A stretch of DNA of 37,118 nt from an uncultured Dokdonia sp. (GTDB lineage Bacteria > Bacteroidota > Bacteroidia > Flavobacteriales > Flavobacteriaceae): positions 1 through 37,118 of the forward strand of contig CAJXSW010000016.1 of the NCBI GenBank assembly GCA_913060645.1, in the 5' to 3' direction. Both the position numbers and the translations under genes were made by a program. Shown in pieces: positions 7,225-21,515 of the stretch (its first letter is position 1; each line of letters starts with the position of its first letter). The notes under the pieces are model-generated. The model did not search any database and was not told the origin of the DNA. It saw only the letters and a program-made list of their open reading frames with translations.

Positions 7225-8364
7225 TTATTGTGGTAACGGCGGCGGTGTGTTACCTCCTAAGAAAGACTTAAGCTCTTCCACCTCTTGCAATGCAGTCCAT
7301 GCAGCCATTCCCTGTTTCCACACAAGGCTCTCCTTATTGATAGTGCGGTTTGCAAATAAAGCCTTGAGCTGATCGATACCTACGGGTCCTTGTTGCGCAC
7401 CGTTTACAGCATAAAAATATTGTACTGCGGCTGGCATAGGTGGAGGCATCATTCCTCCTTGATTCATTTGGGGTTGTGCTTGTTGTTGTCCTCCCATTTG
7501 TGGAGACATCATTCCGCCCATTTGTTGTGCGAGTACAAAGCCCATTCCCATACCCATTCCTGCTCCTGCAGTACCACCTTCATTTGTAGCTGCAGCTTCT
7601 ATTGCTTTTGCGGTTTTGAACTTAGTAAGTTTATCTAGGTCTATTTTATCCAGACGACTGTATTCAAATATTTCTTTCTTGAGGTCTTCTGGCATCGATA
7701 CATTCTCGATGTAAAACTTCTCAAGAGAAATACCTACAGACATGAACTCTGGCTTCATTACCTCTTGGCACGTATCAGAAAGCTCAGACGTATTTGCAGC
7801 ATACAGCTCTATAGGAAGATTTGCTTCTCCTACCGTATCTGTAAATCTTGTTGCAATGAGACTTTTGAGATGCTCATTAATCTCAAAATTAGTAAAGTTG
7901 TTATCTGTCCCTACGATGTCTACAATAAACTTCCCAGCATCTGCAATTTTAAATGCATAGGTTCCAAAAGCGCGAATCTCAACCAGTCCAAAACGGTCAT
8001 CGCTTAATGTAATTGGATTTTTAGTTCCCCACTTTTCGTCTGTAAATAAGTGTGTGTTTACAAAATAAACTTCTGCTTTAAATGGAGAATTAAAGCCATA
8101 TTTCCAACCTTTAATAGTAGATAATATTGGTAAATTTTGAGTAGTCAGGTCATATGTTCCTGGTGTAAAAACATCTGCCAGTTGGCCTTCATTTACAAAC
8201 ACTGCCGTCTGTCCTTCACGTACAACAAGCTTTGCACCATTTTTTATCTCATTTTGATAGCGCTCAAAACGGTGAGCAATGGTGTCATCTGTATAGTCTA
8301 ACCACTCGACAATATCTATAAACTCATTACTGAGTTTCTCTTTAATTTTACTAAAAATATCCAT
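7225..8364 (-). CDS. SPFH-domain protein with C-terminal GYF_2 domain (YdjI-like)
   Basis: The 379-residue protein has an SPFH (band 7-like) domain over about 20-255, resembling the so-called virion-core-protein YdjI type. A flexible Met/Gly/Gln/Pro-rich linker (262-312) follows, then a GYF_2 domain (about 315-366, YFYAVNGAQQGPVGIDQL to WKQGMAAW) and a Pro-rich tail. There is no transmembrane helix, so it is probably a cytoplasmic or membrane-peripheral scaffold. GYF domains bind proline-rich peptides, and its own linker and tail are possible ligands. It precedes the zinc-ribbon gene and follows the unrecognised module at 8460-10594, separated from it by a terminator. Confidence 0.82.
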   Translation of the reverse strand: MDIFSKIKEKLSNEFIDIVEWLDYTDDTIAHRFERYQNEIKNGAKLVVREGQTAVFVNEGQLADVFTPGTYDLTTQNLPILSTIKGWKYGFNSPFKAEVYFVNTHLFTDEKWGTKNPITLSDDRFGLVEIRAFGTYAFKIADAGKFIVDIVGTDNNFTNFEINEHLKSLIATRFTDTVGEANLPIELYAANTSELSDTCQEVMKPEFMSVGISLEKFYIENVSMPEDLKKEIFEYSRLDKIDLDKLTKFKTAKAIEAAATNEGGTAGAGMGMGMGFVLAQQMGGMMSPQMGGQQQAQPQMNQGGMMPPPMPAAVQYFYAVNGAQQGPVGIDQLKALFANRTINKESLVWKQGMAAWTALQEVEELKSFLGGNTPPPLPQ

Positions 8365-8413
8365 AGGTTGTGTTGTTTTATTTTGTGTTTTAAAGTTATG
8401 AAAAAATAGTGCA

Positions 8414-8451
8414 CAAAAAATCGGCTATTGTTATTCCTAACATAGCCGATT
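8414..8451 (-). terminator. Terminator closing the paralogue/small-gene operon
   Basis: On the minus strand AATCGGCTAT (8442-8451) pairs with ATAGCCGATT (8419-8428) and is followed by a T-run (8420 down to 8415). It separates the small gene at 8460-8576 from the SPFH gene, which therefore probably has its own promoter. Confidence 0.8.
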
Positions 8452-8459
8452 CAAATAGG

Positions 8460-8576
8460 TTACTTTATAATAATTAGAGTTCCGTCGGGTAATAATATAC
8501 TGATGTCAGTAATTTCTAACGGAAGGTATCTTACGAGATTCACAAGATATTTAAGTTCGTGTATGATTTCTTCCAT
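8460..8576 (-). CDS. Very small protein B (38 aa) with SIxxPDG motif
   Basis: I translated this frame by hand: it starts at ATG 8576-8574 and stops with TAA at 8462-8460. The product begins MEEIIHELKYLVNLVRYL and ends EITDISILLPDGTLIIIK. The start lies 2 bases after the stop of the 266-aa gene, which implies translational coupling, and a terminator follows at once. Its last half matches the 39-aa gene at 10475-10594 (SI, two residues, PDG at the same distance from the end). I recognise no family. The coupling, the terminator and the shared motif argue for a real gene. Confidence 0.7.
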   Translation of the reverse strand: MEEIIHELKYLVNLVRYLPLEITDISILLPDGTLIIIK

Positions 8577-8578
8577 TA

Positions 8579-9379
8579 TTACACCGTTTTAAATCTTATT
8601 GTAACCTCACTATATAATGTAGCATTACTACTAGCACTTTTTGTACTAGCGGGCCTTGCAATAATTCTAACAGAAGGAATGGAAGCTCCTATAGATCCTT
8701 TTTCAATCATTGCTGCCTTATCTACCATAATAACCTTGGTATTTCGCTCAGAATCGAATACCTCTTTAATAGAAATTCCTTTGATAGAAATTGGAGTTGC
8801 TTCAAGATTTACAATTGATTTTATATCGTCTTTGTCTATTACTATATCCTTAGCTTCAACTTTTGACTTCATTTTTTTAGCAAGGATAGGCTTAGAAACT
8901 TGAGACTCTTGATAGTAATTAGAAAGTTCAAGCTTTGCTTTGATTTCTCCAGAATCAACAACTAATTGTGTAGACTCAGCTCTATTAAGGAGTAACTCAA
9001 TAGAACCTTTATATTCATCTACAAGATTTTCTATCGTGAGGTTTTTAACCTTTTGAACACCGTCCTTAGTCAATTTACCACGATACACAATCCCTTTAAG
9101 ACTATCAAATTGAGTTTCAAGATAGCTTAATTGATCATCTGTAATTACACCTAGATTTTCAATAAGCACTCCAAATTGAGCAAGCTCTTTATCAGCTATC
9201 ATTTCTGCGTTGAGGTAATCTTTTTTAAAGGCATCAGATGAAAGATTTAATGCTTCTTGAAGCTCTCTGTATTTTTCCAGTTGGTGATTTTGAGCGGAAA
9301 GGGTAGCGTCAAATGTTTCTTGTAACAGCTGCCCCACAAATTCTGAAAATCCTAAACCTACTTCGCTAAAATTTTCCAT
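8579..9379 (-). CDS. Unrecognised protein, paralogue 1 of the 8460-10594 module
   Basis: I do not recognise this 266-residue protein. It has no signal peptide or membrane helix. Residues 10-40 form an amphipathic helix with FSEFVGQLLQETFD and QLEKY. Residues 139-150 read LVVDSGEIKAKL, followed by a lysine-rich KMKSKVEAKD stretch, and the last residues are VTIRFKTV. All these blocks are found in the same order in the neighbouring 296-aa protein, so the two are diverged paralogues: a helical N-terminal half and a beta-rich C-terminal half. It follows that gene by 3 bases and is followed by small gene B 2 bases on, so all three are probably co-translated. Confidence 0.8.
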   Translation of the reverse strand: MENFSEVGLGFSEFVGQLLQETFDATLSAQNHQLEKYRELQEALNLSSDAFKKDYLNAEMIADKELAQFGVLIENLGVITDDQLSYLETQFDSLKGIVYRGKLTKDGVQKVKNLTIENLVDEYKGSIELLLNRAESTQLVVDSGEIKAKLELSNYYQESQVSKPILAKKMKSKVEAKDIVIDKDDIKSIVNLEATPISIKGISIKEVFDSERNTKVIMVDKAAMIEKGSIGASIPSVRIIARPASTKSASSNATLYSEVTIRFKTV

Positions 9380-9382
9380 ATC

Positions 9383-10273
9383 CTATCCGTTTAATGGAGC
9401 ATAATCCGTTTTGAACTTGATTAGTACTCGTCCGAAGATGTCAACTTTAGTTCCACTAGAATCTCTTTGATACGACTTTGCTGTGTTTACAGTCACAGTT
9501 CTACTCACATTTTTTCTTTTTCTCTTTGATCTAAAAATCCCGATGATTCCCCCACCTCTCACATCCTTTGCTTTGGTCTTAACCTTTGCTTTTTGGTTAT
9601 AGCCGCTACTACTCCCTGAAGTACTATTATTCCAGGTAGAAAAAGTAATCTTAGTCTCTATTTCTCCTTCAGTTACTACTAAGCGCATTACACCTTGCTT
9701 TGCTATGGTTTGTAACAGACCATACTTGTTTGAAGCAATGAGAGAAGCAATGGCATCGTTTATCTCATTGTAGGTGGGAAGGTGATCTGCGATAGCTTCG
9801 GCTCCCTCAAGCACTTTTTCATTATATTTATTAAGCGCGTCAAGACCTTGCATTTCACTAGGATCGTTAATTTTATCTACAAGTCCTGTTGCTACTGGAG
9901 CGAGTGCATTAATAAGACCTCCCCACCATTTATCGTCAACTGCTGGCTTATCTGCAGCGGCTGGTGCTCCAGGTGCGCTGGGAGGTTGTAATTTATCCAA
10001 GTGTTCTGTTATGGCGGTGGCGTCTGGTTCAGGGAGGTCATAAGCTAGTACAAACTCAGATATTTGATCAAAACTAACGTCGTCTTTTGTGTTGTTGATA
10101 TAAGTAGATAAATCATCTGTAAGTGAAGATACAAATGCTGCATACTCTTCCATTTGTAGAATATGAGCTTCTACTAAAGAATCAAAAACACCTGTAACTA
10201 GTTCTTTTGTAAACTCTACAAATGGAATATCTCCAAATCTTGAAGCTGTGTCGATTGCATAATTGTCATTCAT
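9383..10273 (-). CDS. Unrecognised protein, paralogue 2 of the 8460-10594 module
   Basis: I do not recognise this 296-residue protein. Residues 18-50 (FVEFTKELVTGVFDSLVEA, QMEEY) match the N-terminus of the 266-aa neighbour. An insert rich in Ala and Pro (95-125, including WWGG) is unique to this copy. Residues 198-210 read LVVTEGEIETKIT, then a Ser/Gly-rich stretch, KVKTKAKDV (230-238), a very basic SKRKRKN segment and a final VLIKFKTD. No signal or membrane helix is seen; GGGIIGIF is too short to count as one. A promoter-like box lies 27 bases upstream. It appears to be the first gene of the three-gene unit ending at 8460. Confidence 0.8.
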   Translation of the reverse strand: MNDNYAIDTASRFGDIPFVEFTKELVTGVFDSLVEAHILQMEEYAAFVSSLTDDLSTYINNTKDDVSFDQISEFVLAYDLPEPDATAITEHLDKLQPPSAPGAPAAADKPAVDDKWWGGLINALAPVATGLVDKINDPSEMQGLDALNKYNEKVLEGAEAIADHLPTYNEINDAIASLIASNKYGLLQTIAKQGVMRLVVTEGEIETKITFSTWNNSTSGSSSGYNQKAKVKTKAKDVRGGGIIGIFRSKRKRKNVSRTVTVNTAKSYQRDSSGTKVDIFGRVLIKFKTDYAPLNG

Positions 10274-10474: not shown

Positions 10475-10594
10475 CTATCCTTGGTACTCATATGAGCTTC
10501 CATCTGGAAACTCTATTGAGAAATAAGAAACATCAAATTCCTCATCTTGAAAAATTTCTTCTAGAAGTCCCCACTCTTCCGTATTTGTATTCAT
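10475..10594 (-). CDS. Very small protein A (39 aa) with SIxxPDG motif
   Basis: Hand translation gives ATG at 10594-10592 and TAG at 10477-10475. The product starts MNTNTEEWGLLEEIF, is strongly acidic, and ends DVSYFSIEFPDGSSYEYQG. The SIEFPDG segment lines up with SILLPDG of the 38-aa product at 8460-8576. It has its own promoter-like box 29 bases upstream and its own terminator, which makes a chance frame unlikely. No known family is recognised; an anti-activator, adaptor or peptide ligand is possible, but this is only a guess. Confidence 0.62.
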   Translation of the reverse strand: MNTNTEEWGLLEEIFQDEEFDVSYFSIEFPDGSSYEYQG

Positions 10595-10857: not shown

Positions 10858-11733
10858 ATGCTCACGATAGATCCTAAAGAAATTCCAGTTCCACAATTAT
10901 TTGCTCACCTTACAGGTGCTGTGGGACCGCGTCCTATTGCATTTGCAAGTACGGTAGATAAGAATGGTAAAGTAAATCTTGCTCCTTTTAGCTTTTTTAA
11001 TGTCTTTGGGGCAAATCCTCCTATTCTTGTGTATTCCCCCTCTAGAAGTGGTCGTGATAACACCACAAAACACACGCTAGATAACGTACTTGAAGTACCT
11101 GAATGTACTGTAAACATTGTAAACTATGCAATGGTACAGCAAATGTCACTTGCAAGTACGGCTTATGCAAAAGGTGTTAATGAGTTTGCAAAGTCTGGAC
11201 TTACTGAAAAACCATCTGAGATGGTGCAACCTCCTTGCGTTGCAGAGGCTCCTGTACAGTTTGAGTGTAAAGTAATTGAGGTAAAGCCACTAGGTGATCA
11301 AGGTGGCGCAGGAAATCTTGTAATTTGCGAGATTTTAAAAATGCATATTAATGAGGAGGTATTAGATGCTCATGGAGCGATAGATCCTCTCAAGATAGAT
11401 CAAGTCTCACGTATGGGTGCAAACTGGTATAGTAGAGCAAAAGATGGACTTTTTGAAGTGCCTAAACCAGTTTTGAGAACAGGTATAGGGGTGGATATGA
11501 TTCCTCAAGAAATAAGAAACAGTACAATACTCACTGGTAACGATTTAGGTATGTTAGGTAATGTAGAGCAACTACCTACCGAAGATGAGATTTCTGACTT
11601 TATAAAACAGCATGAAGATTTAAGAACAAATCTTGCTACAGCAAGTGAGGAAACGGTGCATAAACTAGCAAAGGAATATTTAGATAAAAAAAATGTGGAT
11701 AATGCGTGGAGAGTTCTGCTCGCAAAACGCTAG
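10858..11733 (+). CDS. Flavin reductase-like FMN-binding split-barrel protein
   Basis: The 291-residue protein carries a flavin reductase-like domain over about 12-195: VGPRPIAFASTVDKNGKVNLAPFSFFNVFGANPP is split here by position only (residues 22-55) and shows the RPIA, N-x-APFS and PP features of the FMN-binding split barrel, followed by SRSGRDNTTKHT and a C-terminal helical extension (230-291). Proteins of this type bind FMN and act as NAD(P)H:flavin oxidoreductases or flavoprotein partners. The electron acceptor cannot be told from the sequence. The DUF3127 gene follows after 36 bases. Confidence 0.85.
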   Translation: MLTIDPKEIPVPQLFAHLTGAVGPRPIAFASTVDKNGKVNLAPFSFFNVFGANPPILVYSPSRSGRDNTTKHTLDNVLEVPECTVNIVNYAMVQQMSLASTAYAKGVNEFAKSGLTEKPSEMVQPPCVAEAPVQFECKVIEVKPLGDQGGAGNLVICEILKMHINEEVLDAHGAIDPLKIDQVSRMGANWYSRAKDGLFEVPKPVLRTGIGVDMIPQEIRNSTILTGNDLGMLGNVEQLPTEDEISDFIKQHEDLRTNLATASEETVHKLAKEYLDKKNVDNAWRVLLAKR

Positions 11734-19340: not shown

Positions 19341-21515
19341 TTATATAACTATCCTGCCTAAAGTAACCCTTGATGAATTTTCATTGAGGCTAAAAAACTT
19401 TACCTCCGTATTCTCTGTAGGCCTTCCCAAATCTTTAGTAATTGTCATTTTTAAAAATGAGTTTGGACTTCTTTCTTTCTTCTCGTCCATTAGAATATTG
19501 AAAAACCACTCTCCTTTCTCTGCATTTATAAGTTGAAATTCTTGAAATCTTGTATCACGTTTCAACTCATTATTCATTTCATTTTGACTCCTAAAACTAT
19601 CATGCTTCCATTGATGATAATTCTTTGTAGGATTAACAAATTGAAAGGAAAAATTCTCATTAGGCACATTCCACTCTAACGTTACAAGACCATCTAATGC
19701 TATTTTGGAAGGTTTAAAAGTAGAGAGGCTCCATGGTAATACAACGCTCGGAAACTTGTTATAAATCCCTCTAATTTCAGTTGTAATCGCCATTTTAAAA
19801 TCTTCAGAAAGTGGAAAGGTGCTTAAGATTTCTTCATAAAGTACACCTGCACTTTCAAAATCATTCAAATGTATGTAGCTTTTTGCAAGATCACGTTTAA
19901 GTTGCAAGGAACTAGGATACTCTTTAGAAAGTTTTGAAATCAGATTATGAGCATCAAGATGATACTTTTCTTTCTCAAATTTATAGGTCAATGCAATCAA
20001 TGCATCTTTATCAAATTCATAAACTTCTTCGATATTAGACAATACTCGCTTAGCTATTTCAAGTTGCCCTTTTGCTTTAAATGCATCAAATGCATCAAAA
20101 TAAAAATCTACATCACCACCTGCTATCAAACGTTCTTTCAAATAAACAGAGTAAGCCTCCTGAGACGCTATTAACTTAACTTTTATAGCATTGAAATTAT
20201 TGAGGTCAATAACTTTTAGATCCCCTTTCATTCTTCTAGTGGTTCCTCTACGACCACTTTTCTTTTCTTCCTTATTGATTATACCACTCTTAGTAGTAAT
20301 TAATACTACCCCATTTACAGCATTAGGTCCATAAATTGCAGTAGCAGCTAGACCTTTGAGGACCTTAACATCTTTAATAGTTGAAGGATCAATATATGAA
20401 TAATCTGTTTTACTACTTACTTGGCTTTGCTCAGTAATTATTCCGTCAATATAAACAACGGGATGATTTGTGTTTACGTATGAAGAAAAACCTCTTATTA
20501 TAGCACTTCCTAAATCTTGTTTACCTTGGTATTTTACACCTGGCACTTTACCAGATATAAGTTGGCCTACATCTGTATGTCCCGTCTTATATTGGTCTGA
20601 TGTTACTCTCACAATAGAATAACCTTTTGAACGATCTTCCTCCCAATATTCATTTTCCGGTAATCTTTCTTTTTCTTGTTTATCAGTAATAATAACTTCT
20701 TTAAGTTGATTCATTTTATTTCCAAAATCTAGCTGAATTTCCACATCGCCTTTATCTTCTATTTTTATAAGCTGTTCTTTACCTCTTACAGTTTTAACAC
20801 TTACTATATCCTTAGTGTAACTCTGATAAGTATACCAGCCATCCTTATTTGACCTTGTACTATTCTGTTGATCATAAATAGAACTTATTTGAGCTCCCTC
20901 AATAGCTCCATCCTCGTTGAAAATATAACCTGATACTGTGATTTCTTTTTTTAATGTGGATTCCGTTTGTTGTTTTTTTAAATATTTATCAACTATTTTT
21001 TTTGAAAAATCATTTACAACAATTTCGGATAGGTGTTCTTGATCTATATTATAAAGTGGCAAGTACTTTACTTTGACATCTTCAAGATTATTAGGTGTAC
21101 TATTTACAATGATAAGTTTATCCGAAAAGTCACCCATCTTAGGCAATTGATCTGAAAAGTAAAGGATCTTTCTAGATTGTCCTGATCTTAGAAGAATGTC
21201 AGGATGTTTAGTTGACCCATCATAATTAACCATTTTGAGAAAATCTAAAAATTCTCTGGTATTACTATTTACGTCCGAAAACATTTTTTTTTCTAAAACA
21301 GTATTAGCAAATACTGTTATTTCAATATCGTCAACTGAATTTATCCGAATATATTCTTCGAGTACATTAATCTCTAGATCAAGGTTTTTTTCAATCATAG
21401 AAAATGAAGCATCCCAATAAACGGAAAGTTTATTAGGCGCTTCTTGAGACAAAACCGTTAAAGTGAGTATAAGAAAGAAGCTAAGTAGTATAGATTTTTT
21501 AAATATAGTTATCAT
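19341..21515 (-). CDS. Barrel-less TonB-plug protein with VWA-like, regulatory and TPR-like segments
   Basis: The 724-residue protein has a Sec signal (1-24). Residues 29-155 resemble a von Willebrand A domain, with DxSxS at Asp35/Ser37/Ser39. Residues 190-265 fit a carboxypeptidase-regulatory-like beta domain. Residues 296-412 are a clear TonB-dependent receptor plug (VGQLISGKVPGV, IRGFSSYVN, VVYIDG, KVLKGLAATAIYGPNAVNGV). Residues 440-585 are helical and TPR-like, and the C-terminal 130 residues look beta-rich. No outer-membrane barrel or terminal beta signal follows the plug, so it cannot be a transporter itself. It is the only gene in its stretch; 19151-19340 downstream holds nothing recognisable. 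Confidence 0.75.
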   Translation of the reverse strand: MITIFKKSILLSFFLILTLTVLSQEAPNKLSVYWDASFSMIEKNLDLEINVLEEYIRINSVDDIEITVFANTVLEKKMFSDVNSNTREFLDFLKMVNYDGSTKHPDILLRSGQSRKILYFSDQLPKMGDFSDKLIIVNSTPNNLEDVKVKYLPLYNIDQEHLSEIVVNDFSKKIVDKYLKKQQTESTLKKEITVSGYIFNEDGAIEGAQISSIYDQQNSTRSNKDGWYTYQSYTKDIVSVKTVRGKEQLIKIEDKGDVEIQLDFGNKMNQLKEVIITDKQEKERLPENEYWEEDRSKGYSIVRVTSDQYKTGHTDVGQLISGKVPGVKYQGKQDLGSAIIRGFSSYVNTNHPVVYIDGIITEQSQVSSKTDYSYIDPSTIKDVKVLKGLAATAIYGPNAVNGVVLITTKSGIINKEEKKSGRRGTTRRMKGDLKVIDLNNFNAIKVKLIASQEAYSVYLKERLIAGGDVDFYFDAFDAFKAKGQLEIAKRVLSNIEEVYEFDKDALIALTYKFEKEKYHLDAHNLISKLSKEYPSSLQLKRDLAKSYIHLNDFESAGVLYEEILSTFPLSEDFKMAITTEIRGIYNKFPSVVLPWSLSTFKPSKIALDGLVTLEWNVPNENFSFQFVNPTKNYHQWKHDSFRSQNEMNNELKRDTRFQEFQLINAEKGEWFFNILMDEKKERSPNSFLKMTITKDLGRPTENTEVKFFSLNENSSRVTLGRIVI

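Follow-up and report, generated by a model that had tools for sequence, protein, structure and literature searches.

Three adjacent genes, two of them old paralogues, inserted as one segment in an uncultured Dokdonia genome

Results

A pair of related genes and a small third gene

The window analysed here is the whole stretch of 37,118 nucleotides from an uncultured Dokdonia sp. It contains two large genes on the minus strand, called big1 and big2, and a small gene downstream of them (Table 1). The two reading frames lie exactly where an earlier note on this DNA had put them with respect to position, strand and spacing, and the blocks that it had seen in both products are present in the order claimed. 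The N-terminus of big1 is a long helix bearing the motif F..F...L...VFD....A...Q...Y, which is followed by a variable middle. Its C-terminal part contains RLVV..GEIETK..F, then a stretch rich in Ser, Thr and Lys that includes GGIIGIF, and a final strand, GRVLIKFKTDY; big2 terminates in SEVTIRFKTV. Across 13 big1-type proteins, the invariant columns were F, F, L, F, Q and Y of the N-terminal helix, VV..G.......F, and G.V...F near the end, and no catalytic residue set was evident by eye among them. Both proteins had been described as helical in the N-terminal and beta-rich in the C-terminal half. For big1 this agrees with an AlphaFold2 model with one long helix, several further helices and, C-terminally, three long strands, a model that is poor (pLDDT 44) and serves as a secondary-structure hint only; the model of big2, also poor (pLDDT 47), contained short strands only. 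As had been claimed, no membrane helix is indicated in either protein, the highest hydropathy means over 19 residues being 0.99 and 0.97.

Table 1. Features at and around the gene pair in the window
Feature	Position	Strand	Remarks
big1	9383..10273	-	296 aa
big2	8579..9379	-	266 aa; paralogue of big1; begins 3 bases past big1
Small third gene	8460..8576	-	38 aa; by eye, a helix plus DISILLPDGTLIII; begins 2 bases past big2
Inserted segment	8401..10372	.	1972 bases; absent from the relatives read
Terminator-like hairpin and T run	8415..8450	-	near the insert end; -15 kcal/mol, z -4.3
SPFH/Band7-GYF gene	7225-8364	-	one flank of the trio
Flavin-reductase gene	10858-11733	+	other flank of the trio
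Upstream 39-aa ORF	10475-10594		in the flank common to relatives without the trio

The trio is a single insertion between conserved neighbours

Among 18 genomes of the genus, the SPFH gene was found in 17 and big1 in one, the source genome. Both flanking genes, SPFH and flavin reductase, were present in 16 of the 17 relatives; they are adjacent in six (G202, G205, G203, G199, G214 and G206) and far apart or on separate contigs in the remaining ten. The six were all read, and none carries the trio: the flanking genes are 458-522 bases apart in these genomes, compared to 2493 in the window. The two nearest relatives have flanking proteins that match those of the window at 97-99% identity; relative to these genomes the window has 1972 extra bases. 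The empty site, CTCCTTTTTTCATAAC, is seen in L036 and L037, and the spacer between the flanking genes has diverged in L038-L041. The trio of big1, big2 and the small gene thus entered the source genome as a single insertion of 1972 bases. Gain is simpler than repeated loss because 17 of the 18 genus genomes, some of them incomplete, lack big1.

The insert is bordered by the T run of an upstream terminator-like hairpin on one side and by CATAAC ahead of the SPFH gene on the other. A run of six T is present at both junctions, and where in the T run the insert exactly ends is ambiguous. No integrase was seen among the ORFs of the insert, and inverted repeats at its ends did not exceed 6 bases. 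The hairpin near the end of the insert (Table 1) is absent from the list produced by a separate consensus scan.

Small ORFs on both sides of the pair had been counted as members. The downstream one stands as such, and the upstream 39-aa ORF does not, since it sits in the flank of relatives that lack the trio. An exact 30-base piece of this ORF occurs in L036-L038, and there is no exact copy in L039-L041. It is only slightly similar to the small gene of the window (6 of 500 shuffles scored at least as high), and it shows no similarity to the small genes of L006 and L016 (154 and 238 of 500 shuffles). Genus relatives keep the ORF, and by eye a terminator-like hairpin follows it; the ORF may be a genuine gene for a small protein with no relation to the trio.

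Big1 and big2 are old paralogues

The earlier note had proposed that big1 and big2 are paralogues. Within the window alone the signal is modest: BLASTP gave E = 1e-4 in a single comparison, and a Smith-Waterman z of 5.3 was obtained, with the score reached by 1 of 1000 shuffles. Relatives were decisive. When big1 and big2 of the same locus were aligned at four other pair loci, z was 5.4, 10.8, 15.1 (L017) and 23.1 (L074), and 0 of 300 shuffles reached the score in each case. HHalign of the big1 family against the big2 family (12 and 5 sequences) gave 99.2%, E = 8e-20; with fewer sequences (8 big1-type and 4 big2) the value was 98.5%.

A tree was built from 17 proteins, 12 big1-type and 5 big2, omitting L003 as a near copy of L002. 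It has no outgroup, the midpoint root is for drawing only, and two of the big2 proteins are unusual in make-up. The five big2 proteins form one side of a branch with support of 95/94, which was recovered in 94% of 200 bootstrap trees. The five big1 proteins from pair loci are likewise on their own side of a branch (99/98), and the other seven big1-type proteins make up a third group (98/97). Since both phyla are represented within the big1 group of the pair loci and within the big2 group, the duplication predates the spread of the pair across two phyla. These sequence comparisons show that the two genes are old paralogues, as had been proposed. They also indicate a faster divergence of big2 than of big1: among the three closest loci, identity is 34.9-42.2% for big2 and 62.0-64.4% for big1, and between L017 and L074 it is 31.7% and 42.9%, respectively.

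Relatives fall into a pair lineage and a peptidase-linked lineage

Eleven loci were tabulated with tblastn (E <= 1e-3; queries drawn from the same loci). The pair lineage comprises the window, L006 (a Myxococcales MAG), L016 (G510), L017 (G804) and L074 (G1021, from the phylum of L006), for which stretches of 37, 13, 17, 19 and 8 kb were compared. The second lineage, which lacks big2, comprises L008/L009 (G036, G072), L007 (Fulvivirga marina), L018 (G772), L073 (G985), with three big1-like copies, and L075 (G1133). In the tblastn table big2 occurs at all five pair loci, and big2 queries match big1-like genes in L073 and L075.

The order big1, big2, third gene is found at 5/5 pair loci, where adjacent genes overlap by up to 4 bases or lie up to 15 bases apart. 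The coupling suggested by the earlier note therefore extends to every locus with a big1 in the clade of the window (99/98), and homologues that never co-occur were not what was found; yet six loci have a more distant big1 relative without big2. All six of these have an S8 subtilase gene near the big1 relative (partial in L075) and a protein of ~330 aa that is helical; neither was found at any of the five pair loci within the 8-37 kb stretches, which accordingly lack the features that define the S8-linked lineage. Other companions in the S8-linked operons are a 247-aa protein (5/6 loci) and proteins of ~740 and 92 aa (the four Bacteroidota loci).

The third gene is of two kinds. It encodes 38 aa in the window, 60 aa in L006 and 40 aa in L016, and the window copy is homologous to the other two (z 10.3 and 11.9; 0 of 500 shuffles each). 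At the same place L017 and L074 have genes of 227 and 205 aa, sharing 1 and 4 bases with the end of big2. These two genes are homologues of one another (z 9.7; 0 of 500 shuffles) and contain, by eye only, a helix-hairpin-helix-like part. By HHalign and shuffle tests the small genes could not be linked in sequence to the 205-227-aa genes. A kinship of either with the 247-aa gene of the S8 operons was considered and set aside, there being no HHalign link.

Big1 is patchily distributed. The samples in which its frequency was assessed overlap, and the figures are not summable: 1/18 in the genus sample, 1/296 in the order sample, and 4/395 in the phylum sample (the window, two pair loci and one S8-linked locus). 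The family sample gave 5/199 at E <= 0.01, the real ones being the window and two S8-linked loci; G132/L004 proved unrelated on inspection, G095/L005 was left unclassified, and both were excluded from the counts. We found 2/79 in the family of G510, one of them false (G882, CdaA-like by eye), 1/98 in the order of G804, and 5/282 in the L006 phylum (two loci of the pair lineage, two of the S8-linked one and one doubtful). In this last phylum G1099 has the N-terminal helix motif only and was kept out of the alignments. An isolated ORF, L076:8340-8978, matches that motif alone (E 5.7e-5) and is either a remnant or chance. No match to the big1 query was obtained in 72,556 plasmid and 50,697 phage records, nor in viral contigs by exact-pattern scans, which are not exhaustive; a similar scan of genome contigs, also not exhaustive, found two loci and missed the G510 type. 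Contamination across phyla is disfavoured because the GC content of the islet tracks that of its host contig (islet/host 0.61/0.66, 0.37/0.38, 0.41/0.43 and 0.74/0.76).

Some neighbouring genes were recorded in passing. In L016 an OLD/AriA-like ATPase (7278-9059; PADLOC Old E 4e-72, AriA E 7e-41) is encoded just upstream of the pair, in the same orientation. In the S8-linked operons, downstream genes (L008:1321-5442, L007:11972-14307, L018:1314-6192) have, by eye, a common short basic N-terminal tag resembling M.NR.L..QQEL. The domains behind the tag differ and include that of a phage-type lysozyme (PF00959, E 9e-29) and that of a DUF4347 protein (E 8e-23); the tag is perhaps a sorting or packaging signal for cargo. 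A gene of 352-364 aa is common to L073:3612-4706 and L075:2994-4052 and absent from the four Bacteroidota S8-linked loci; PF11991 (tryptophan dimethylallyltransferase) matches the L073 copy very weakly (E 0.13) and the L075 copy not at all.

No known family accounts for the proteins

The earlier note knew no family for the pair, and the database searches agree. In Pfam no family reached the cut-off for any of the 13 big1-type proteins, the five big2 proteins or three small proteins. An example of the weak matches below the cut-off is Focal_AT, seen in 5/13 big1-type members (best E 0.0012). NCBIfam gave no match above cut-off for the members scanned, and the PADLOC anti-phage defence models gave no family for big1 and big2 of the window at E <= 0.05. 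In PHROGs nothing was found for the window big1, and for its big2 there was one family of unassigned function (E 0.019), for which no stretch passed. In the PDB, nothing was below E 0.18. A profile search could have assigned the two proteins to different known families, and no such assignment arose. Pfam DUF2589 (PF11655) matched 0/13 big1-type proteins at E <= 1 and 0/5 big2, and neither Trypco2 (PF19631) nor, in the family scans, gasdermin gave a match. Among the matches listed from the open-licence literature there was no description of this module, which has no name to serve as a search term.

Discussion

Big1 and big2 are of common origin, are paired with a third gene at five of five loci and arrived in this genome in a single insertion, and a recognised enzyme or membrane domain is absent from all three products. 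We propose that the trio is a self-contained islet that moves horizontally, in which big1 and big2 would be subunits, duplicated long ago, of a soluble alpha+beta family not described before; for this reading as a whole we see about an even chance. Transcription as one message and co-assembly of the three products are somewhat favoured. Big1 and big2 would likely build one hetero-oligomer through the helices conserved at their N-termini and the strands conserved at their C-termini, and the small helix-hairpin protein may be accessory to it. A role for the assembly in conflicts, with phages or with other bacteria, is suggested only tentatively. A conflict module fits because the islet is patchy, mobile and without a recognised enzyme. 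Counted against the reading as a whole are the blank PADLOC result for big1 and big2, the poor AlphaFold2 models of both, the negative plasmid, phage and viral searches and the weak profile matches below cut-off. A scan for defence genes that covered the neighbourhood of L016 gives a defence-like neighbour at one of the five pair loci. The pair may instead have a housekeeping or stress role.

An alternative that ties the pair to its present neighbours, as an accessory of the SPFH/Band7-GYF and zinc-ribbon genes, has the shared strand and the position directly upstream in its favour. The genus distribution and synteny, in which the pair is a later insertion beside a gene that nearly all of these genomes possess, argue strongly against such a coupling, and we regard it as most improbable. 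The relationship between the two subunits could also be antagonistic: big1 would be the active effector and big2 a faster-evolving duplicate that restrains it. The identity values given above and the S8-linked loci that have no big2 of their own would agree with this, but those same loci apparently need no such neutraliser, and a difference in rate alone can be explained by many causes; we consider this reading quite unlikely. Somewhat unlikely, too, is that big1 and big2 are a distant branch of the DUF2589 family, which likewise consists of two adjacent helix-plus-strands paralogues (a-type against b-type, HHalign 94.9%) and a gene of ~91 aa (~88-93 aa beside the pair at L045, L046, L048 and L078), and which by eye has the same order of elements as the pair: a helix, a strand, a Ser-rich stretch that carries a G.G tip, and another strand. 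HHalign of big1 against DUF2589 b-type scored 25.3 (at most 18.9 in 60 column shuffles), big1 with big2 scored 19.3 (at most 17.1 in 60), and the C-terminal part of big1 scored 21.8 (at most 14.2 for 8 other alignments); column shuffling, however, favours a DUF2589 match because the strand pattern is destroyed. The alignments held 4 and then 7 b-type and 3 and then 5 a-type sequences, leaving out L047 and not including L044 and L081. HHalign probabilities were only 0.4-5.2% for profiles containing big1 and 0.1-0.2% for big2 alone, the a-type gave no signal (16 or 10 of 60 shuffles as high), and the Pfam model had found none of the proteins. The pair, below thresholds in every profile comparison, is not filed there, and DUF2589 also differs in a third gene that is unlike by eye and in that several copies adjoin peptidoglycan-active genes.

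Another possibility is that the proteins act on membranes. The stretch of big1 from the first to the last conserved strand would then be a two-strand hairpin that unfolds into the membrane in the manner of beta-barrel pore formers, big2 would be a second subunit or a brake, and the subtilase would be the activator in the S8-linked relatives; we think this improbable. The stretch is 56-92 residues long in big1-type proteins and 65-72 in 10 of 12 sequences, though the two lineages are only ~20% identical. Its content of Ser/Thr/Asn/Gly is 31-53%, compared to 24-35% for whole proteins, the only comparison set, and the strings GGIIGIF, AGIIGLF, GFLQTIF, LLGSIFG and GGLFGIF occur within it, these being the most hydrophobic 7-mer, which was reported for every sequence whatever its value. 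An S8 gene is nearby at all six loci of the lineage without big2. Against this, the value of that 7-mer is ~1 or less in L006, L073a, L073b and L075, the strings in L073a, L073c and L075 depart from the glycine-aromatic type, and Lys/Arg reaches 23% of the stretch, which is unusual for a pore-former stem; the structure models are of low confidence (pLDDT 44 and 47). The composition fits an extendable hairpin and equally a flexible basic loop. A wider version of the idea is a slim prospect when its parts are taken jointly: an undescribed superfamily in Bacteroidota and Myxococcota that exists in two forms, as a mobile pair standing alone with its third gene and as an operon linked to a subtilase, and whose members would form putative hetero-oligomeric pores through a Ser/Thr-rich beta hairpin, activation being controlled by big2 or, in the other lineage, by the subtilase. 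Bacterial gasdermins are pore formers with protease partners. The likeness to them is confined to the idea of a protease-activated pore former in the S8-linked lineage, and the pair loci differ in having no S8 gene within the 8-37 kb stretches and no gasdermin match.

For the S8-linked lineage only, the Trypco2/peptidase-linked conflict systems may offer an analogy. In the systems of Kaur et al. (2020; PMC7159879) a peptidase gene stands beside companion proteins, and the lineage resembles that arrangement. It differs in that the peptidase is S8 and that no NTPase family was above cut-off in the proteins scanned. The 240-aa neighbour of L018 has a weak Trypco2 match below cut-off (E 0.14), and big1 and big2 differ in having none.

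The islet as we read it belongs to a family that spans two phyla and keeps its pairing at all five loci, and here it is a compact insertion of less than 2 kb without a recognised helper gene. Such islets are a common place in which new mechanisms of defence or antagonism are found. The near-isogenic relatives with an empty site enable a direct comparison with and without the trio, and the S8-linked operon is a second entry to the biochemistry of the family.

Two further observations were made. The DUF2589 loci L045, L046, L048 and L078 are on plasmids and a viral contig; the pairs and ~91-aa gene adjoin genes annotated as peptidoglycan-binding in L045 and L046, and neighbours in L045, L048 and L078 resemble lytic transglycosylases or lysozymes by eye. 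Elsewhere in the window, at 19341-21515, a 724-aa protein without a barrel combines, by eye, a signal peptide with carboxypeptidase-regulatory-like, TonB-plug-like and TPR-like repeat regions.
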